Source: Massilia rubra (GTDB lineage: Bacteria > Pseudomonadota > Gammaproteobacteria > Burkholderiales > Burkholderiaceae_D). Taken from it: a DNA stretch of 64,000 nucleotides. Both the position numbers and the translations under genes were made by a program. The notes under the pieces were generated by a model. That model saw nothing but the letters and a program-made list of their open reading frames with translations. It did no database searches and was not told the DNA's origin. Positions 7,697-16,127 of this stretch are shown here, piece after piece; the first letter of the stretch is position 1, and every line of letters begins with the position of its first letter. Location: positions 1 to 64,000 of the forward strand of contig NZ_VUYU01000017.1 in assembly GCF_011682065.1 (NCBI RefSeq), read 5' to 3'.

Positions 7697-8233
7697 ATGA
7701 CTACTCTGCTCGCCATTTCAGGCAGCTTGCGCCGGGACTCGGCCAATACGATGCTGCTGCGCGCCGCAGTCGCGCTGGCGCCCGCCGGCGTGCGGATTGT
7801 GCTGTACGAGGGCGTGGACCAGTTGCCGTTTTTCAATCCCGATATCGAGACCGCGCCACCGCCAGTGGTGCGCGAGCTGCGTGGCATGCTGAGCGCGGCC
7901 GATGGCATCATCGTGGCCAGTCCGGAGTACGCGCACGGCGTGCCCGGTGCGTTCAAGAATGCGCTGGACTGGCTGGTTGGCTGCGCTGAGTTGGGCAGCA
8001 AGCCGGTGGCGCTGATGAATACGTCGGCGCGGGCGGTGCATGCGCATGCCGCGTTGGCGGAAATCCTGACGACGATGGGGTGGACGGTGATTGCGGCGGC
8101 CTCGCCGGTGATTGCGGTTGCCAACCGGGGATTCGATGCAGCGCACATCGCGGCCGATCCGGCGCTGGCCGGGCCGTTGCGGGCGGCTATCGAGGCGCTG
8201 GTTCTCGCTACGCGGGCCGAGGTCACGCCATGA
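7697..8233 (+). CDS. NADPH-dependent FMN reductase
   Basis: A 178-residue flavodoxin-like protein with the N-terminal phosphate loop ISGSLRRDSANT and the SPEYAHGVPGAFKNALDWL segment that defines NADPH-dependent FMN reductases (ChrR/ArsH/azoreductase-like). It is expected to reduce FMN, quinones or xenobiotics with NAD(P)H. The ATG at 7697 starts exactly at the first beta strand. The stop overlaps a possible 23-codon ORF (ATGA at 8230). No specific substrate can be assigned. Confidence 0.9.
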   Translation: MTTLLAISGSLRRDSANTMLLRAAVALAPAGVRIVLYEGVDQLPFFNPDIETAPPPVVRELRGMLSAADGIIVASPEYAHGVPGAFKNALDWLVGCAELGSKPVALMNTSARAVHAHAALAEILTTMGWTVIAAASPVIAVANRGFDAAHIAADPALAGPLRAAIEALVLATRAEVTP

Positions 8234-8301
8234 CGGATTTTCAGTGTCCCCGCTGCGACCGGGCATGTCACGCGCCGTTGCCATCTCACATGGCTGCTTG
8301 A
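8230..8301 (+). CDS. Possible 23-residue CxxC peptide (doubtful)
   Basis: A 23-codon ORF overlaps the FMN reductase stop (ATGA) and encodes MTDFQCPRCDRACHAPLPSH plus three residues. The CPRC...C arrangement recalls the first half of a zinc ribbon, and translational coupling is geometrically possible. It is too short to judge and may be chance or the remnant of a longer gene. It precedes the DUF5063 gene by 11 bp. Confidence 0.15.
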   Translation: MTDFQCPRCDRACHAPLPSHMAA

Positions 8302-8312
8302 ACAGGGTTAGG

Positions 8313-8816
8313 ATGGACAACACGACAATTTTCGTGCAATCGGCCCGGGATTTTTGCCAGTGGGCCGAAGGCGATTTGCAGCCGGGCGAGGCGCAGGTGC
8401 CGATCGCCCGCCGTCACCTGGCGCGGCTGTATGCGCAAGCGCTCGATCTGCCGCAGCGCGATTGCGATTGGGGCGATGAGGCAGCGCAGGTGTCGCATGC
8501 AGCATGGCAAGCGATGTTCGCGCGGTTTGGGGCGCTTCCGCTCAATTACTACTCACAGAGCGCCAATGCGCTCGATGTTGTGTGCAGCGAGATGATGATT
8601 GGCGACCTGGCCGATGACCTGGCCGACATATGGCGTGACCTGAAGCACGGCCTCAACTTGCTCGATGGCGGCAATCCCGATGCCGCTGTGTTTCAGTGGC
8701 GCGAAAAATTCATCATTCATTGGGGGAGCCATGCCGCCAGCGCCTTGCATGTATTGCAGTGCTGGCAACAGGACTCGCCTGGTCCGGACGCCGCTAAAAG
8801 CCATTCCCACGCATGA
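8313..8816 (+). CDS. DUF5063 domain-containing protein
   Basis: A 167-residue acidic cytosolic protein. It has the Trp/Asp-rich pattern of DUF5063 proteins (FCQWAEG near the start; DVVCSEMMIGDLADDLADIW and QWREKFIIHWGSHAASALHVL towards the C-terminus). No function is established for the family. The ATG at 8313 lies in the short gap after the possible mini-ORF, with only a weak purine-rich SD. It may be co-transcribed with the FMN reductase. It converges on the HEAT-like gene that ends at 8876. Confidence 0.75.
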   Translation: MDNTTIFVQSARDFCQWAEGDLQPGEAQVPIARRHLARLYAQALDLPQRDCDWGDEAAQVSHAAWQAMFARFGALPLNYYSQSANALDVVCSEMMIGDLADDLADIWRDLKHGLNLLDGGNPDAAVFQWREKFIIHWGSHAASALHVLQCWQQDSPGPDAAKSHSHA

Positions 8817-8875
8817 TCTGGTGGATTTCCTGGTATTGACTGCGGCGACGCGACAGGTCCGGCCGTGACCCTGAT

Positions 8876-9346
8876 TTAGCTGGCGCCGATGCGCTCGGCA
8901 AAATCGGTGCGCAACTCCCAGCGCCGCAAGCATTCCCGGGCGTATTTCCTGAGCATCTGATCCGTGCTCTCTGCAAGTTCTTCCAGCGCAAGACGCGAAC
9001 CGATGGTGCCGATGGCGGCCAGGGCGTAGGCGCACTTGCGCTGAAACGAATGCTGGTTGTCGGAGTTCACCAGATAGTCGAGATAGGTATTGGCGGCCTG
9101 GAATATCGGCGTGACGGTGTGCGGGTGCGCCAGCTCGGCAAGATCGAACACCATTTCTTCGTGTGAAAAGTGCCAGGGCTCCAGCAGCAGCTTACTTAAC
9201 ATGGGGGCAACGCTGGGGTCCAGGGGCCAGGCGTTGCCGCATTCGCGCGCATCGTCGGCGTTTTTGACGCCAGGGCCTTGGCAATCAGCGCAGCTTGCAT
9301 GGCGTTCCGTGAAATGATGGCCTGCTATCCACGCATTATGGCGCAA
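8876..9346 (-). CDS. HEAT repeat-like hypothetical protein
   Basis: Up to 156 residues, all-helical, with repeating motifs such as HTVTPIFQAANTYLDYL and RKCAYALAAIGTIGSRLALEEL that look like HEAT repeats. The longest frame starts at a TTG (9346) inside the end of the class C beta-lactamase gene, with GGAG just upstream. The first ATG is at 9202 and starts where the repeat-like pattern begins, so the start is uncertain. The first 48 residues do not resemble the rest. It could be an N-terminally shortened HEAT protein. It is the last gene of the bla operon by position; no function is known. Confidence 0.6.
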   Translation of the reverse strand: MRHNAWIAGHHFTERHASCADCQGPGVKNADDARECGNAWPLDPSVAPMLSKLLLEPWHFSHEEMVFDLAELAHPHTVTPIFQAANTYLDYLVNSDNQHSFQRKCAYALAAIGTIGSRLALEELAESTDQMLRKYARECLRRWELRTDFAERIGAS

Positions 9347-10499
9347 GTTGCTCCAGGATCGCGTGGCCCGCTTTGACGCGGTCCGGAATCGGATAATTTT
9401 TGTTCGCCAGAATCACGACGGCGATGTTCTTCGCCGGCACGAATGCCGCGTAGTTACCGAATCCGCCCGTCGAACCGGTCTTGTTGAACAGCGTCGGCGC
9501 GGATGGCGCCTTGGGGGCGCTGATGCGCTTGGCCGCGTTCGCTTGCGTGATCATGCCGCGCGAGTTGCCGGCCTGCAGTTGCTTGAGGCTGACAGGCCAG
9601 GGATATTGCTCCCAGCCGAGCCCCTGCACCATCGCGCCCACCTGGAAGTAGCCGACATGGGTGCCTTGCACCGCGCGTCGCACCGGCTCGTCCAGCTGGC
9701 CCGGTGCGATGTTGACCTGCATGAAGCGGATCATGTCGGCGCTGCCCGAATGCACGCCGTAAGCTTGCGGCGCCAGTACGCCCGGGTCCATGCGGCGCGC
9801 CTGGTTGTTCTCGTCGTAGCCCCACGCCTGCTTGGCCATGGCGCTGGACGGCACGCGCAGGTAGCTGTTTGTCAGTCCCAGTTGCGCCAACAGTTGCTCC
9901 ATCGCCTCGGTAAAATCGCGCTTGAGCGCCAATGCCGTCACATGCCCGAACAGGCCAAGACTCGGATTGGAATAGCGGCGTTGCGTGCCGGGGGCGCTCG
10001 CCGGCGTCCATTGCCGGAAATAGTCGGCCATCTGGTCGTCGCTTAACGCTTCAGGAAACTGCAGCGGCAAGCCGCCGGCGGTGTAGGTTCCCAGGTTGAG
10101 CACGCTCGCCTTGTCGATGCCGCTGCCTTTCAGTTGCACCATGTAGGCGCTCGGGTGCGCGTCCAGCGACAGCTTGCCGCTCGCCTGCGCGTACGAGGCC
10201 AGGGTCGCCGTCAGCGTCTTGCTGATGGAGCCCAGTTCGAACAGGGTCGCCTCGCTCACCGGGGTCTGGTCCTTGACCGACGCCAGGCCGTAGTTGAAGA
10301 AATAGGCCTTGCCGCCCACCGTCACGGCCACCGCCATGCCCGGTACGTCATGCTCGGTCATGATGGGGGCGATGGCCTTGTCGACAATGGCGCGCAGGCG
10401 CGCGCTGTCGTCGGCAGCCCGGCTGGACAGGGGCGCGCAGCATGCCGCGATGAGGGCCAAGGCGATGTGGCTGGTAAATCTTTTCGGCGAAGTGGACAC
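9336..10499 (-). CDS. Class C beta-lactamase
   Basis: A 387-residue secreted serine beta-lactamase with signal peptide (residues 1-28, ending LSSRA). All class C motifs are present: Ser91-Ile-Ser-Lys94 (SxxK), Tyr176-Ser-Asn178 (YxN) and Lys340-Thr-Gly342 (KTG). It should hydrolyse cephalosporins in the periplasm through an acyl-serine intermediate. It is not next to an ampR gene. It lies 45 bp after the B3 enzyme gene, in an operon headed by blaI-blaR1. That suggests BlaI/BlaR control rather than the usual AmpR/AmpD control of class C genes. Confidence 0.92.
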   Translation of the reverse strand: MSTSPKRFTSHIALALIAACCAPLSSRAADDSARLRAIVDKAIAPIMTEHDVPGMAVAVTVGGKAYFFNYGLASVKDQTPVSEATLFELGSISKTLTATLASYAQASGKLSLDAHPSAYMVQLKGSGIDKASVLNLGTYTAGGLPLQFPEALSDDQMADYFRQWTPASAPGTQRRYSNPSLGLFGHVTALALKRDFTEAMEQLLAQLGLTNSYLRVPSSAMAKQAWGYDENNQARRMDPGVLAPQAYGVHSGSADMIRFMQVNIAPGQLDEPVRRAVQGTHVGYFQVGAMVQGLGWEQYPWPVSLKQLQAGNSRGMITQANAAKRISAPKAPSAPTLFNKTGSTGGFGNYAAFVPAKNIAVVILANKNYPIPDRVKAGHAILEQLAP

Positions 10500-10544
10500 A
10501 GCGGTGCTTCCTTTTCTGATGGCGGTGGTCGATGCAAAGGGTGT

Positions 10545-11405
10545 TTACTGTTGGGCCGCTTCGGCGGCCAGCTTGCGTGCCAGCCTGTCGCGCGCAGCGT
10601 TGGCGTAGTCTCGGCAGGCGTTGCGGTCGATAAAGGCGGCGTTGCCCAGTGTCGGCTGTCGGGCCAGGCGCTCCCACAGGTCGCTCCCCTCCGGATGGGC
10701 CGAAACCAGCACGTCGCAATCGAACGCGGCGACGGTGGCGATCGATTTTTCGAGCTCGGCGCGCACTTGCGGGTAGGTGGTGTTGGCGCTGTAGCGAAAC
10801 GGGCCGGCGCTGAACGCATTCAGGCTGTCGGCATACACCATGGCGGCCGTCTTGCCGCCCTCGGACGAGCGCCAGGTCCAGCTGGTGCCGCCCTGCGCGT
10901 GGCCCGGCGTGTAGTGCGCGGTGACCGACAAGGGGCCGAGCTTGATGATCTCGCCATCCTTGACGGCGCGTGTGTTGGCCACGGTGGCCGTGGTCGGCGG
11001 CAGGTTGGTGTATTGCGGGTCGCCCTTGCTGGTGGCGCCGGTGCGCAGGACTTGCTCGCCGTGCACGCTGGCCAGCACGGTGGCGCCCGACAGGCGCTGC
11101 AGTTCGGCAATGCCGCCGGCGTGGTCGAAGTGCTCGTGCGAATTGAGGATGTACTTCACGTCCCCGATCTTGAAGCCCAGTTGGCCGATGTGCCGCACGA
11201 TCTGGACTGCTGATTCCGGACTGCCGCCGTCGATCAGGATGTGCCCGGCAGGGGAGGTGATCAGGACCGCGCTCAGGCCGCGCACGCCGACGTAGTAGGT
11301 GTTGCCGAACAGGGCGAACGGTTCTTGCGGGTCGTTCCAGTCGGCGCCAAGCGCTGGCGTGAGCGGCAGGGCGGCCAGCAGCGTGGCAATGAGCAGGTGT
11401 TTCAT
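10545..11405 (-). CDS. Subclass B3 metallo-beta-lactamase
   Basis: A 286-residue protein with signal peptide (MKHLLIATLLAALPLTPALG). Zinc ligands follow the B3 pattern: His90-x-His92-x-Asp94-His95 (HEHFDH), His169 in TPGHAQGGTSW and His237 in SAHPEG. B3 enzymes bind two Zn2+ and hydrolyse most beta-lactams, including carbapenems, in the periplasm. It lies 24 bp behind blaR1 and 45 bp ahead of the class C gene, all on the minus strand. The family motif is usually H-A-H-F-D-H; Glu at the second position is a mild variation that does not remove a ligand. Confidence 0.93.
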   Translation of the reverse strand: MKHLLIATLLAALPLTPALGADWNDPQEPFALFGNTYYVGVRGLSAVLITSPAGHILIDGGSPESAVQIVRHIGQLGFKIGDVKYILNSHEHFDHAGGIAELQRLSGATVLASVHGEQVLRTGATSKGDPQYTNLPPTTATVANTRAVKDGEIIKLGPLSVTAHYTPGHAQGGTSWTWRSSEGGKTAAMVYADSLNAFSAGPFRYSANTTYPQVRAELEKSIATVAAFDCDVLVSAHPEGSDLWERLARQPTLGNAAFIDRNACRDYANAARDRLARKLAAEAAQQ

Positions 11406-11428
11406 GTTGTCTCCTTGGTGAGGTGGGT

Positions 11429-13273
11429 TTACTTGAGCGCGTCCAGGCGGGCAGGCAGCTCGCGCAGGAATGATTTTTTGGTCCTGGTGCCGGCCGCCTG
11501 CCCTTCCTGGCGTGGATCGAGCACCAGGCGCGCGAAGATCACGGTGCGGCCGCCCTTGCTTGCCCAGCCAACAAACCAGCCGTATTCGTGCTTGGGATCA
11601 TCGGGACCGGCAACGGTGACTGGCGCCGAGGTGCCGGTTTTGCCGTGGATTTCCCAGCCGTTTTGCAGGTTGTCGAGCCTGGTGATGCGGGCGGTCATGT
11701 CGTACGCCGCCGGCGTCAGCCCGAGCTCGCGGTTGACTATTTTGCGCAGGAAGGCAACCTGTTCGACAGGTGAAATTGCCAGGGTCGAACTGATCCAGGA
11801 AAGCGGGAGGACCTTGTCCTTGCCGGCGTCGCCCAGTACGTTGCGGTTACCGTAGTCGAAGCCATTGATATAGCGCTGAAGTTGTGCCGCGCCAAGGTGA
11901 GCGGTGACTTGCTGGGCGTACCACACGGTGGAATTGCGCATCCAGCTGGTCGGGTCGGTGCTCGCGCGCCAGGAATCGATCCAGTCGGCATAGCCTTCCT
12001 TGAACGCCAGTACCGGGGCGTGTTCGTCGCGCAGGAAGCCGCTGTCGTAGCCCATCAGGCTGACGACAATGTTGAAGGTCGACGCCGGCGTGACGCGCTC
12101 GTCGCACTGGCCTTCGTGCACCAGCCGCTGGCCGCTGGCGGCGTCGATCATTTCCGTGCAGCTCAGCAAGACGGATGATGCGCTGGCGCTGGCCGGCGCC
12201 GGCGATGCGTTCTGTGCCGCGTGCGGGGCGGCGTCGATTCGCCAGGCCAATGCGGGCTGGAAGGCAAGGCTGCCCAGCACGATGCCTGCGAGACTGGCGA
12301 GCGCGGCGCAGCGTGCCCACGGGGTGCGCGGCGCGCTGGCCGGTTCGCGGATCAGCGCGATGCGCGCCGCCACGCTGCGCTCGCTGACGCCGCCGAAGGC
12401 CAGCGCTGTCGCGACTGTGTGGTGCTGCAGGCGCAGTTGCGCCACCAATGCCGCCGCGTAGGCCTTGCGCTGGACCTGGGGACGACCGCGCAAAACATCG
12501 CGATCGCAGCCGAGTTCCTGCGCCCAGGACAGGTTGACCCGCAGCAGCCGCATGAAGGGGTTGAACCAGAGCAGGGTCTGGAGCAGCACGCCGGCGCTCA
12601 TCCATTGTAGGTCGTGGCGCCGCAGGTGGGTCAGTTCGTGGGCCACGATCAATTCCTGCTGCACCGGCGCCAGGCTGCGCAGGTGGCGCGGCAGCAGCAG
12701 GCGCGGCTTGAGGAGGCCGAACAGCATGGGCGAGATGGGGGCGTCGACTTCAATCACGTCCGGCGTGCCTGCCGCTTGCGCGGGACCGGCAAAGCCGTCG
12801 TGCGGGTGCGGGCTGGTCATGCGCGATCCGGTCGCGGCCAGGCCGTTGAGCATGCGCCGGGCACGCACCAGCTTGGTGATCGAATAGCCCAGGCCGAGCA
12901 GGTAGATCAGCAGCCAGGCTTGTGCGCCGCTGGCAAGCCAGGGTTTGTCGCGCGCCTGGATGGGTGGGTTGGCCGGTGTGCCGGCCCCTGGCGCGGCTGC
13001 GGCTGTGGTGGCTGGGGTGGGCACGCTCGCTTGCCTCGCAGGCTCCAGGTCGATCTGCGGGATGATGCGCAGGCGTTCGCTGTGCGGTAGCAAGATCACC
13101 AGGAAGGCCGCCACGATCGTGATCTGGCTCAGCAGCCACAGAGAGCGCTGCGCGGCGAAATCGGGCAGGCTGCGCCGGCACAGCGCGGTGACGGCCCACA
13201 CGGCCAAGCCGGCGGCCAGGCAACCGCCGCTGGCCAGCAGGAAGCGCGATATCAACAGGTCGGCCGGGCTCAT
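11429..13273 (-). CDS. blaR1: BlaR1-type M56 metallopeptidase with class D-like sensor domain (STFN)
   Basis: A 614-residue integral membrane receptor. About four membrane segments (near 10-30, 45-62, 117-132, 322-340) frame an M56 zinc peptidase with His212-Glu-Leu-Thr-His216 and the following Glu253/CD motif. A periplasmic class D beta-lactamase domain (about 368-614) follows, with Ser448-Thr-Val, Tyr474-Gly-Asn, Trp493, Lys545-Thr-Gly and YGWFVGW. The nucleophile box is Ser398-Thr-Phe-Asn401: the carbamylated lysine of the usual STFK/STYK is replaced by Asn (codon 12071-12073, AAC). BlaR1 proteins sense beta-lactams by acylation and signal to inactivate BlaI. The ATG overlaps the blaI stop by 4 bp. 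Confidence 0.88.
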   Translation of the reverse strand: MSPADLLISRFLLASGGCLAAGLAVWAVTALCRRSLPDFAAQRSLWLLSQITIVAAFLVILLPHSERLRIIPQIDLEPARQASVPTPATTAAAAPGAGTPANPPIQARDKPWLASGAQAWLLIYLLGLGYSITKLVRARRMLNGLAATGSRMTSPHPHDGFAGPAQAAGTPDVIEVDAPISPMLFGLLKPRLLLPRHLRSLAPVQQELIVAHELTHLRRHDLQWMSAGVLLQTLLWFNPFMRLLRVNLSWAQELGCDRDVLRGRPQVQRKAYAAALVAQLRLQHHTVATALAFGGVSERSVAARIALIREPASAPRTPWARCAALASLAGIVLGSLAFQPALAWRIDAAPHAAQNASPAPASASASSVLLSCTEMIDAASGQRLVHEGQCDERVTPASTFNIVVSLMGYDSGFLRDEHAPVLAFKEGYADWIDSWRASTDPTSWMRNSTVWYAQQVTAHLGAAQLQRYINGFDYGNRNVLGDAGKDKVLPLSWISSTLAISPVEQVAFLRKIVNRELGLTPAAYDMTARITRLDNLQNGWEIHGKTGTSAPVTVAGPDDPKHEYGWFVGWASKGGRTVIFARLVLDPRQEGQAAGTRTKKSFLRELPARLDALK

Positions 13274-13653
13274 TGCTCGTCACCGTTGTCGTCGGGCCAG
13301 TCGGTGAGCAGTTGCTCGAGCCGGGTCAGCTCGGCGTCATCGACGAGCTTGCTGCCGGTAAACATCGTGACCGGCAAGGGCGCGTCCATCTCCATCACGC
13401 GCTTGCCGAAGTCGTGCGCGAAGGAGGCGAGGGTGCCAATTTTTTCCAGGACGGCTTGATACACCTGCACGCCATGCAAGGTGGATTGGGTGATGGAACC
13501 CTTTTCCAGCATGCGTTCGAGGGTCTTGCGCGTGGAGGAGTACGACCAGCCAAGTTCGGCTTCAACCTGCTGGTGGATTTCGCGCGCGCTCAGGGGCTGC
13601 TGCCGCCACAGCGATTTGAGGACGATCAGTTCGGAGATGGAGGGGATGGCCAT
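13270..13653 (-). CDS. blaI: BlaI/MecI/CopY family transcriptional repressor
   Basis: A 127-residue winged-helix repressor (MAIPSISELIVLKSLW..., recognition region SYSSTRKTLERMLEKG) of the BlaI/MecI/CopY family. These dimers repress bla genes until a BlaR1/MecR1 receptor triggers their inactivation. It is the first gene of the operon and overlaps blaR1 by 4 bp (ATGA). The ATG at 13653 is chosen because homologous sequence begins there; 11 extra upstream codons are possible. A palindromic operator sits inside its own promoter (13685-13714), which indicates autoregulation. Confidence 0.92.
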   Translation of the reverse strand: MAIPSISELIVLKSLWRQQPLSAREIHQQVEAELGWSYSSTRKTLERMLEKGSITQSTLHGVQVYQAVLEKIGTLASFAHDFGKRVMEMDAPLPVTMFTGSKLVDDAELTRLEQLLTDWPDDNGDEQ

Positions 13654-13684
13654 GGGATTTTTTATGTGTGCGACGAGTGCCACC

Positions 13685-13714
13685 ATTATGTGACATATGT
13701 CGCACCAACGTCAA
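13685..13714 (-). promoter_or_regulatory. bla operon promoter with embedded BlaI operator
   Basis: On the minus strand, TTGACG (13709-13714) and CATAAT (13685-13690) are separated by 18 bp. Between them lies TGTGACATATGTCGCA (13689-13704), a dyad around the perfect 10-base palindrome GACATATGTC. The core ACATATGT equals the centre of known BlaI operators, which follow the TACAnnTGTA pattern. The -10 lies about 32 bp upstream of the blaI ATG. Confidence 0.7.
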
Positions 13715-13789
13715 GCGCGATGATGCTGGCGTTTTCGGGGCGCAGCACCAGGTCGCCTGTTACTGAATGTCTTGATGGAGCCGCCGTCG

Positions 13790-14320
13790 ATGCGCACCGT
13801 TGTAGCCTGTTTGCTTGCCGCCCAGTTTGCCGCCTCCGGCGCGATGGCTTGTCAGCCCCTGGAAGCCAAGTTGTGGGCTGAAACGCCGCGCCGGGTGAAG
13901 TCCAATTTTGATGGCGCGCAGTTTGTCGTGGCAGCTAGCGTGATCGACGTGAAAATGATGCATGAGGCCAGGCCGCCTCATCCGGATTTCAAGATGACAT
14001 TCGAGCGCGCCAAATTTCGGGTCGACCGGATGTTCAAGGGGACGGTGAAGGCCGGCGATACGTTTGTGGTCGACTCGGGAATCTCCTCATGCGGGCGCGG
14101 CGTGAATCCGGACATCATGAGCGTGACTGGCTCCGGTTCTAAAATGGCGCGTTCGCAGGACTATCCGAAGCAGTGGCTGATTTATCACACGAGTCAGCCG
14201 CACTTCCCTGATTCGCAGTTCCAGTCCCCCGCGTTTGAAATCCAGGACTCGCCGTTGAGCAGGCCGCTCGAACAGGCTTCCTATGATGTGGAAATCCTTG
14301 AGAAACTGCCTGGCGGCTGA
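13790..14320 (+). CDS. Secreted protein of unknown function, netrin/TIMP-like pattern
   Basis: A 176-residue protein with signal peptide MRTVVACLLAAQFAASGAMA and a Cys directly after the predicted cleavage site. The body has FVVAASVIDV, KFRVDRMFKGTVKAGDTFVV and ISSCGRG followed by WLIYHT. This order resembles the NTR/TIMP-like fold of small secreted proteins, but the match is only by eye. The ATG at 13790 follows TGGAG at 13776-13780. It is divergent from blaI, and its upstream region contains the bla promoter; no link to beta-lactams is evident. Confidence 0.7.
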   Translation: MRTVVACLLAAQFAASGAMACQPLEAKLWAETPRRVKSNFDGAQFVVAASVIDVKMMHEARPPHPDFKMTFERAKFRVDRMFKGTVKAGDTFVVDSGISSCGRGVNPDIMSVTGSGSKMARSQDYPKQWLIYHTSQPHFPDSQFQSPAFEIQDSPLSRPLEQASYDVEILEKLPGG

Positions 14321-14597
14321 CGCTCCGGCCTGTATGGCGCGCTCTCCGTGCGCCGAATCCCGCCCGTCTGCGCAGGGCAGCATTGCCATCGGATCGCAGT
14401 GCATCGCAAGCTGTCCACAGCGCTCGGTTGCGGCTTTTTTGTGCCCTTCAGCAACGAATTATCTAAATGTAAGATTGCTTTCTCGACAAAGTTGAGAGCG
14501 CTCAGTAGACTGGAAATGCTCAAATGCAACGTGTAGATGGGACACGGAAGCGTGCGCTTCCGCCCCGTCGCACGCTCATCAATTTACCAAGGGTCTC

Positions 14598-16127
14598 ATG
14601 ATGCTTCTCCGTTTGTCGCCGGTTTCCCTCACCGGGTTCGTCCTTTCAGCAGCGTTGTCCCTGCACGCTACCAGCGCCGTCGCCGGCGCCTTGGGTAGCG
14701 AATATGCGCTCACTTCCTATCCATCGACCGGGCGCAACATGGTCTACTGTAACAAAGCCCCCAACGGCGACCGCCTGGTGCTGTGGAGCCTCGGGGAAGA
14801 CAATTTCACGCTCATGCTGAACCGGGTCGATGCGAATCGCAATCAGATCGGACCCGTGGCGGACATGCGGCTCGACGCCGACGTGCTCGCAGTTGCCAGC
14901 AATAAGGTCGGTGGCTTTGTTGTGTTGCGAAAAGTGATCAGCGACAGTACCGCGAATCTCTATGCGACCGTCTACAACCGCGCTGGCAACATCGTCGTCC
15001 CTGCGGTGCAGGTGAACACGGCTCCCGCACCGAGCCAGGTCTACGGCGATATCGCTATGGCGCCCGATGGCAGCTTTACCGTGGCGTGGTACACCTGGGA
15101 GAAGTTTCCTAATGTACTTTACGCACGACGCTTTTCCGCAGCGGGGGAGTCGCAGACGTATCAGACGATCATTGCCTCCGGTGTGGAACTGAGACTGCAA
15201 AATCTGGCGATCGATGCGGGGGGCAACCAAGTGATTACGTACGCTTCCGTGGACACCGGCGTGCGCTTCGATCTCTGGCAGAGCCGTTTCGATTACGCCA
15301 ACGACCGCTATGAGAAGCCCTCGCGCGTGAATGTGGATGTGACCCGCTCGCATATGGGCGGCAGGCTGTCGATGAATGAAAGCGGTAACTATGTGGTGAC
15401 ATGGAGCGCGCCGACGGAGGATGTGAACAAGCACAAGGTCTACGCCCAGTTATTCTATCGAAATGGCGCGCGTGCCCCTGGGCCTGTCGTCGTCTCCGAG
15501 ACAGCGTCGTACGATGCCCAGACTGGTTCGGCCCTGTTCGCTAACAATAGTTATGCGGTCACCTGGGCGGAAGTCATTGGGGGCCTGCGTTACATCAAGT
15601 CCCGTCAGGTTGATGGGGCCAACGGGAATTTTCTAGCGGAGTTGGTGGTGTCGCCCGGTTTGCAGAACGTAACCACGAATGCCTTGTGTTCGGATCCAAG
15701 CGGTAGCTATTCAGTGCTGTGGGGAGATGTGCGTGGCTTTAATACGCCCCAGGCGACGGGGGACGTGAGGGTGCGCGATTATGCTGCTGATACGATGCCC
15801 GTCATCGTTCCGATTGGCAACAACCAGATGGCGACGAATATGTCGGCGCAGACCGGTTATTGGCGCTATTTTAAGGTGACGGTACCGGCCAATACCAGCG
15901 GGTTGCGCGTCGCTTTGAGTTCGCAAAGTACGCCAGCCAGCGGGAATGCCGATCTGTATGTGCGGTATGCGGGACTGCCGACCTTGAGTACCTTCGATGG
16001 GCGTACGAGTACAGTCGGTAATACCGAGGCGCTGCAGTTCGGCGCTGTGCCGCCAGGGGCGTTTTATGTAGGCGTGTTTGCGCAGGCAGGGTATGCGGGG
16101 GCGAATTTGAGCGTTAGTTACTACTGA
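14598..16127 (+). CDS. Large secreted protein with beta-propeller-like body and PPC-like C-terminus
   Basis: A 509-residue protein with a signal peptide (residues 1-29). The long body has repeated motifs like 'G.Y.V.W', 'APDGSFTVAWYT' and 'DPSGSYSVLWGD' that suggest a beta-propeller. The C-terminal about 100 residues (TGYWRYFKVTVPANTSGLRVALSS ... NADLYVRYAG ... GAFYVGVFAQ) resemble a bacterial pre-peptidase C-terminal (PPC) domain, which usually sits behind secreted peptidases. No catalytic motif was found. Tandem ATG codons lie at 14598 and 14601 with SD AAGGG. A terminator follows at 16228-16252. Base composition is lower in G+C than its neighbours. Confidence 0.75.
   Translation: MMLLRLSPVSLTGFVLSAALSLHATSAVAGALGSEYALTSYPSTGRNMVYCNKAPNGDRLVLWSLGEDNFTLMLNRVDANRNQIGPVADMRLDADVLAVASNKVGGFVVLRKVISDSTANLYATVYNRAGNIVVPAVQVNTAPAPSQVYGDIAMAPDGSFTVAWYTWEKFPNVLYARRFSAAGESQTYQTIIASGVELRLQNLAIDAGGNQVITYASVDTGVRFDLWQSRFDYANDRYEKPSRVNVDVTRSHMGGRLSMNESGNYVVTWSAPTEDVNKHKVYAQLFYRNGARAPGPVVVSETASYDAQTGSALFANNSYAVTWAEVIGGLRYIKSRQVDGANGNFLAELVVSPGLQNVTTNALCSDPSGSYSVLWGDVRGFNTPQATGDVRVRDYAADTMPVIVPIGNNQMATNMSAQTGYWRYFKVTVPANTSGLRVALSSQSTPASGNADLYVRYAGLPTLSTFDGRTSTVGNTEALQFGAVPPGAFYVGVFAQAGYAGANLSVSYY

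Follow-up and report, generated by a model that had tools for sequence, protein, structure and literature searches.

Asparagine at the carbamylated-lysine position in the class D sensor of BlaR1-type receptor fusions of Massilia and its relatives

We analyzed the first 64,000 nucleotides of contig NZ_VUYU01000017.1 from Massilia rubra (hereafter, the window), in which a blaR1-type gene on the minus strand encodes a fusion of an M56 metalloprotease and a class D sensor domain. In this sensor, asparagine (Asn401) occupies the position of the lysine that is carbamylated in class D β-lactamases. As judged from the sequence comparisons, the change at position 401 is real, conserved and functionally placed, and the chemistry assigned to it here is our proposal. 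The protein is probably a working receptor of the BlaR1 kind, with a sensor derived from a class D enzyme that is acylated at Ser398 and not deacylated, thereby derepressing its operon. This reading draws on the domain architecture, the residue conservation, the gene order, the operator, the placement of the fusions in one clade and the contrast with the enzymes. We infer that acylation, the absence of deacylation, protease signalling and the binding of BlaI to the operator palindrome proceed as follows. A β-lactam would acylate Ser398 and then stay bound, as Asn401, nearly always accompanied by replacement of Ser453 with alanine, would take away the general base needed to activate the water for deacylation; with no lysine to be carbamylated, the receptor could not deacylate. 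The membrane helices would relay the long-lived acyl state to the protease domain, and BlaI would leave the operator at 13689-13704, leading to expression of the blaI-blaR1-B3-class C genes. Our guess is that Ser398 is activated by Lys545 via Ser448.

The motif around the site is P396-A-S398-T-F-N401. The plus strand reads gtt at 12071-12073, hence the codon is AAC, and the STFN motif reported in a preliminary description of this DNA was confirmed in the 614-residue minus-strand open reading frame (ORF). That description had called the other class D motifs intact, and STV (448-450), YGN (474-476), Trp493, KTG (545-547) and YGWFVGW (564-570) were all found where it had placed them; it had missed Ala453, a further departure from the enzymes, which have serine there. 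In our mapping, residues 401, 448, 450, 453 and 493 are equivalent to SAND positions 73, 118, 120, 123 and 157. The fusion protein matched the Pfam families PF05569 (Peptidase_M56, 112 bits) and PF00905 (penicillin-binding protein/class D, 137 bits, residues 375-600). It scored 299.7 bits with the class D β-lactamase model NF000270, above the cut-off of 280, and 153.5 bits with the classical BlaR1 model NF000326, under the cut-off of 400. The label BlaR1 used earlier needs care because the sensor most resembles OXA-42/OXA-57-like class D enzymes and not the classical BlaR1 sensor. A fold search took in sensor residues 365-612, and the predicted model had a predicted local distance difference test (pLDDT) value of 71 in the residue block 491-500, which holds Trp493.

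Class D domains were gathered from two protein searches, a scan of genome contigs, and genus and family surveys. This yielded 267 distinct domains above 200 bits, consisting of 186 fusions with Asn401 (Asn fusions), nine fusions with Lys401 (Lys fusions), 64 free class D domains and eight LRA-13-type fusions of class D with class C. Twelve of the 279 distinct class D rows were dropped because they scored below 200 bits; ten of these read STFK or STYK, and two were pieces of locus L163, one with lysine and the other without coverage of site 401. The counts refer to sequences and not to evolutionary events. Asn401 was present in 186 of the 195 distinct M56-class D fusions, which came from Massilia, Duganella, Janthinobacterium, Rugamonas and kin, and was absent from the 72 non-fusion domains (free or fused to class C), all of which have Lys401. 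The preliminary description had asked whether the asparagine is conserved in a clade, and these counts reveal that it is; the opposite outcome, lysine in all close homologues, is excluded by the spread of Asn across the fusion clade. Sequencing error or a private mutation was also ruled out because Asn recurs in many separate genomes and is encoded by both of its codons. The best 120 relatives by protein search carried both Pfam domains and had sensor identities of 60-100%, with Asn in 117 and Lys in three. A separate query returned a further 120 free enzymes, which may overlap the 72 non-fusion domains, with Lys401 and Trp493 in 120/120 and Ser453 in 119 (threonine in one).

Position 453 is serine in 72/72 non-fusion domains and alanine in 183 of the 186 Asn fusions. 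Ser453 may contact the carbamate, by analogy with Ser120 of OXA-1; a word search of the literature for this contact gave no paper. At position 404, Ile/Leu is changed to Val in 173/186 Asn fusions, and the third residue of the SxV motif (Val450 here) is V in 111, L in 72, and F, A and Y in one each. Some variation was seen next to site 401: the adjacent residue is altered with Asn retained in P0090 and P0111, and four Asn fusions (L107, L112, L114 and P0111) read S-I-F-N, so that Thr399 is replaced too. The nine Lys fusions are of two types: six carry Glu493 and Pro496, and three (P0079, P0087 and P0101) combine Lys401 with Trp493 and Ala453. All three of Lys401, Ser453 and Trp493 are found in 72/72 non-fusion domains, and at least one of them is absent in 195/195 fusions. 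In several genomes, for example at loci L005, L007, L009 and L010, the Asn receptor adjoins the gene of a Lys enzyme.

The carbamylated lysine is described as the deacylation base of class D enzymes, and once the carbamate is lost, substrates should become stable acyl adducts (PMC12389319). Class D mutants in which the lysine is replaced by Asp or Ala are deficient in deacylation and still form acyl-enzymes (PMC7864059, PMC9293634). A BlaR1 receptor needs stable acylation: in Staphylococcus aureus BlaR1, decarboxylation of K392 on acylation gives the lasting signal and has been called critical to the long-lived acyl state (PMC5957439). Trp157 (493 here) holds the carbamate in class D enzymes and makes up one wall of the pocket around the lysine (PMC12389319, PMC9578422). 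Of the two outcomes offered in the preliminary description, a receptor that is acylated but not released is the better supported by analogy because the published Asp/Ala mutants trap acyl-enzymes. The other, sensing without acylation, is disfavoured because Ser398 is present in 186/186 Asn fusions, and it stays as a lesser possibility. Such a non-covalent receptor, which would bind a β-lactam or a peptidoglycan peptide with Asn as a binding residue, appears unlikely to us, as the Asp/Ala mutants still acylate and as the residues of covalent chemistry (Ser398, Ser448 and KTG) are retained in 186/186. In its favour, acylation could stop because serine activation, too, depends on this lysine in class D enzymes (PMC12389319), and a peptidoglycan dipeptide acts on BlaI in Bacillus licheniformis (PMC3305447).

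A further alternative is a slow hydrolase that doubles as a sensor, in which another residue serves as the base and slow deacylation remains. The passing NF000270 score and the three fusions of the same clade that retain Lys and Trp agree with it, but the reviewed class D enzymes use the carbamylated lysine as the deacylation base (PMC12389319), and Ser453 is altered as well; we consider this alternative highly unlikely.

Ser398, Ser448, Trp493, Lys545, Thr546 and Gly547 are each invariant in 186/186 Asn fusions, and His212, Glu213, His216, Glu253 and Asp257 of the protease are invariant in 80 aligned fusions. The HExxH motif is present in 194/195 fusions, the lone exception being a 376-residue fragment. 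Simple pairwise comparisons of the window gene with eight relatives gave ratios of nonsynonymous to synonymous substitution rates (dN/dS) of 0.20-0.32 for the sensor domain and 0.16-0.45 for the M56 part. The sensor domain evolves under purifying selection. In 86 rows, in which some genomes occur twice, the codons at position 401 were AAC (42), AAT (38), AAG (4) and AAA (2). The loss of a residue described as conserved in all class D enzymes (PMC12389319) might point to a sensor that is dead or decaying and persists as a passenger of the operon, but this is extremely improbable in view of the dN/dS values, the invariant motifs, the retention of Asn across the clade while its codon varies, and the recurrence of the gene order and operator. 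A pseudogene was ruled out by the dN/dS values. Likewise, a private mutation with a dead receptor, which the preliminary description had envisaged, is excluded by purifying selection together with the invariant nucleophile, KTG and Trp.

A tree of 131 domains was computed with the trait columns left out and was rooted on the alphaproteobacterial enzyme L013. The tree placed 84 of 84 fusions on one side of a branch (Shimodaira-Hasegawa-like approximate likelihood ratio test 92, not starred) amid free enzymes, and a single fusion event therefore fits. As part of the best explanation, the sensor was probably recruited from a free class D β-lactamase. The changes needed on the tree numbered three at position 401, four at position 453 and one at position 493. 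The six Lys/Glu fusions group together (support 94); like the three Lys/Trp fusions, this group sits among the Asn rows. One clade of Asn rows was not rejected by the approximately unbiased (AU) test (p 0.339).

The family of the window consists of soil and water bacteria. Our family survey comprised 392 genomes, 141 of which had a class D match at 1e-10, and the fusion counts are those among the matches listed. A fusion was present in at least 63 of the 392 genomes, with Asn in at least 57 (58 loci) and Lys/Glu in at least six. At 53 of the 58 listed Asn loci, a β-lactamase gene (B3, C, D or D-C) follows in the same orientation at a distance of less than 300 nt; at three others such a gene lies upstream in divergent orientation, bringing those with one in the flank to 56/58. 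No β-lactamase gene was found in the stretch examined at the Asn loci L062 and L098. Among the six listed Lys/Glu loci, five have a gene for a TonB-dependent receptor downstream and no β-lactamase gene, and at the remaining locus, L115, there are genes for B3 and class D β-lactamases. The five fusions before a TonB-dependent receptor gene (L109, L113, L117, L118 and L119) all have Lys401, Glu493 and Pro496; the receptor genes were called by Pfam at L109 and L118 and by similarity to those two at the other loci. A survey of 399 genomes of the order at an E-value of 1e-30 gave nine matches and no fusion outside the family; the open-frame lengths point to a fusion in G000 and G033 alone, and these two belong to the family. 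We tentatively propose, at somewhat less than an even chance, that this Gram-negative family made receptors from a class D enzyme by breaking the carbamate pocket, where classical BlaR1 uses the SxV gate, and that it did so by two routes matched to the regulon. On this view, Lys401 is replaced by Asn (and Ser453 by Ala) in receptors of β-lactamase operons, and in those located before TonB-dependent receptor genes Lys is retained and Trp493 is replaced by Glu. If so, receptors of the Asn type would be natural penicillin receptors that are acylated without any SxxK lysine, and the Glu493 type may sense another ligand.

Several points weigh against a receptor that is acylated and then held at Ser398. 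P0079, P0087 and P0101 depart from the enzymes only at 453 among the three sites. Acylation of the Asn sensor may be very slow because the lysine also activates the serine, and in one crystal OXA-24/40 K84D held ertapenem unacylated (PMC9293634). Our literature search returned no kinetic or induction data for the Asn clade. Asn401 perhaps arose once, as a single Asn clade is not rejected by the AU test despite the three changes on the tree, and at most a few times, with or without reversals. The exact operator palindrome was not found in the nearest relatives L003 and L004, which have a look-alike instead, and of 64 fusion loci, some of them examined over only a short stretch upstream, 41 have the exact pattern in front.

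Like classical BlaR1/MecR1 of Firmicutes (S. aureus, B. licheniformis), the fusion has an N-terminal M56 domain carrying HExxH before the sensor and, by sequence only, a BlaI partner and an operator beside a β-lactamase gene. In contrast to Asn401 here, the SxxK lysine is kept in the classical receptor (S. aureus K392, PMC5957439). The third SxV residue is polar there (S. aureus N439, PMC5957439; "most BlaR-homologs", PMC9045261), whereas it is hydrophobic here (Val450), and the NF000326 score is a further difference. The Asn receptors would thus reach the same end as classical BlaR1, a long-lived signal, by another path, with a hydrophobic SxV and the lysine gone. The class D β-lactamases, which the protein resembles in its NF000270 score, differ in having the carbamylatable SxxK lysine and in standing alone instead of being fused behind M56. 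In alignments, 6ni0 (Burkholderia thailandensis) and 9hpt (OXA-57), free enzymes without a protease domain, have Lys at the Asn401 position. OXA-1 K70D, OXA-24/40 K84D and OXA-48 K73A are laboratory Asp/Ala mutants, in contrast to an Asn fixed naturally in a receptor.

Fusions of this kind have been reported in Oxalobacteraceae, as 14 representative M56-class D sequences (PMC9045261) and as a class D/BlaR1 gene that precedes LRA-13 homologues (PMC5967600); they are the same as ours by family, architecture and context, matched without accessions. The available main text of PMC9045261 and the main text of PMC5967600 mention neither Asn in SxxK, the Ala453 and Glu493 changes, the operator nor the regulon, and Table S1 of PMC9045261 may list the motif. 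A literature search on STFN β-lactamase gave only an unrelated match, and supplementary tables or subscription papers may list the motif. The SxxK lysine has been called universally conserved in class D (PMC12389319), and here a large clade under selection, beside β-lactamase genes, is without it. The clade is a natural test of acylation without the SxxK lysine and of the change from enzyme to receptor, and by analogy the Asn variant should make the receptor hold the drug and stay on. There is a consequence for resistance-gene calling as well: "class D beta-lactamase" is the NCBI name given to many of these receptors, and the fusion protein analyzed here scores above the class D cut-off although it lacks the catalytic lysine.

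Table 1. Features of the fusion gene and its surroundings, with positions in the window.
Feature	Position	Strand	Basis or remark
blaR1-type fusion gene, M56 metalloprotease and class D sensor, 614 residues	11429..13273	-	Pfam, NCBIfam
Peptidase_M56 domain, residues 19-306	12356..13219	-	Pfam
Zinc motif HELTH, residues 212-216	12626..12640	-	Sequence
Class D sensor domain, residues 368-612	11438..12172	-	
Nucleophile Ser398	12080..12082	-	Present in 186/186 Asn fusions
Asn401, codon AAC, at carbamylated-lysine position	12071..12073	-	Sequence and comparison
Ser448 of SxV motif	11930..11932	-	186/186 Asn fusions
Ala453, Ser in enzymes	11915..11917	-	Ala in 183/186 Asn fusions
Trp493, omega loop	11795..11797	-	186/186 Asn fusions; Glu in 6/9 Lys fusions
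Lys545 of KTG	11639..11641	-	186/186 Asn fusions
blaI-like repressor gene, 127 residues	13270..13653	-	PF03965, 66 bits; overlaps fusion gene by 4 bases
Predicted BlaI-type operator TGCGACATATGTCACA (minus strand)	13689..13704	.	Recurrent palindrome
Promoter-like site: -35 TTGACG 13714-13709, 18-nt spacer, -10 CATAAT 13690-13685	13685..13714	-	Overlaps operator
Subclass B3 metallo-β-lactamase gene, 286 residues	10545..11405	-	NF033105, 325.9 bits, cut-off 240
Class C β-lactamase gene, 387 residues	9336..10499	-	NF033085, 503.5 bits, cut-off 415

As shown in Table 1, the genes lie in the order blaI-blaR1-B3-class C behind the operator and the promoter-like site. They are probably co-transcribed, and BlaI would bind to the palindrome. 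The blaI start is probably the ATG at 13653, after the operator, because comparison with relatives favours it over the start of the listed ORF at 13686. The promoter search found one site, compared with a mean of 0.1 in shuffles. The best model for the B3 protein was the MSI-1 family, yet the score was under that model's own cut-off. A 156-residue minus-strand ORF (8876-9346) without a Pfam or NCBIfam match overlaps the end of the class C gene and may end the operon. An Rfam scan of 8000-15000 revealed no RNA element at the gathering score.

Operator positions were taken from the palindrome itself. The pattern TGYGACANNTGTCRCA occurs at two places in the 7.57-Mb genome, the blaI operon and a second blaI locus, and the reversed control occurs at none. 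The second locus (G000:C74:97303-101447; L177:2304-6448) contains blaI, an M56-Peptidase_M23 fusion and a TonB-dependent receptor gene behind the other exact operator copy. In 17 genomes, the pattern was found at one to four places each, and the controls gave 0 in 17/17. In 16 of the 17 genomes, one fusion had no adjoining blaI in the stretch examined; the operator is directly before the fusion gene and blaI is elsewhere. An unlinked operator copy lies approximately 50 bases before another B3 gene in G356 and G293 (NF033105 scores of 318.0 and 320.2 bits; cut-off 240), and the copies just before B3 genes in two genomes are at L178:2038 and L180:1989. These unlinked copies suggest a small regulon. 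In two genomes, other copies were found immediately after a carbonic anhydrase gene (L179:2161) and approximately 80 bases before an acyltransferase gene (L181:2124). At L163 and L164, broken class D pieces lie at least approximately 3 kb from a doubled operator, with an M56 gene in between in G016 (L164).
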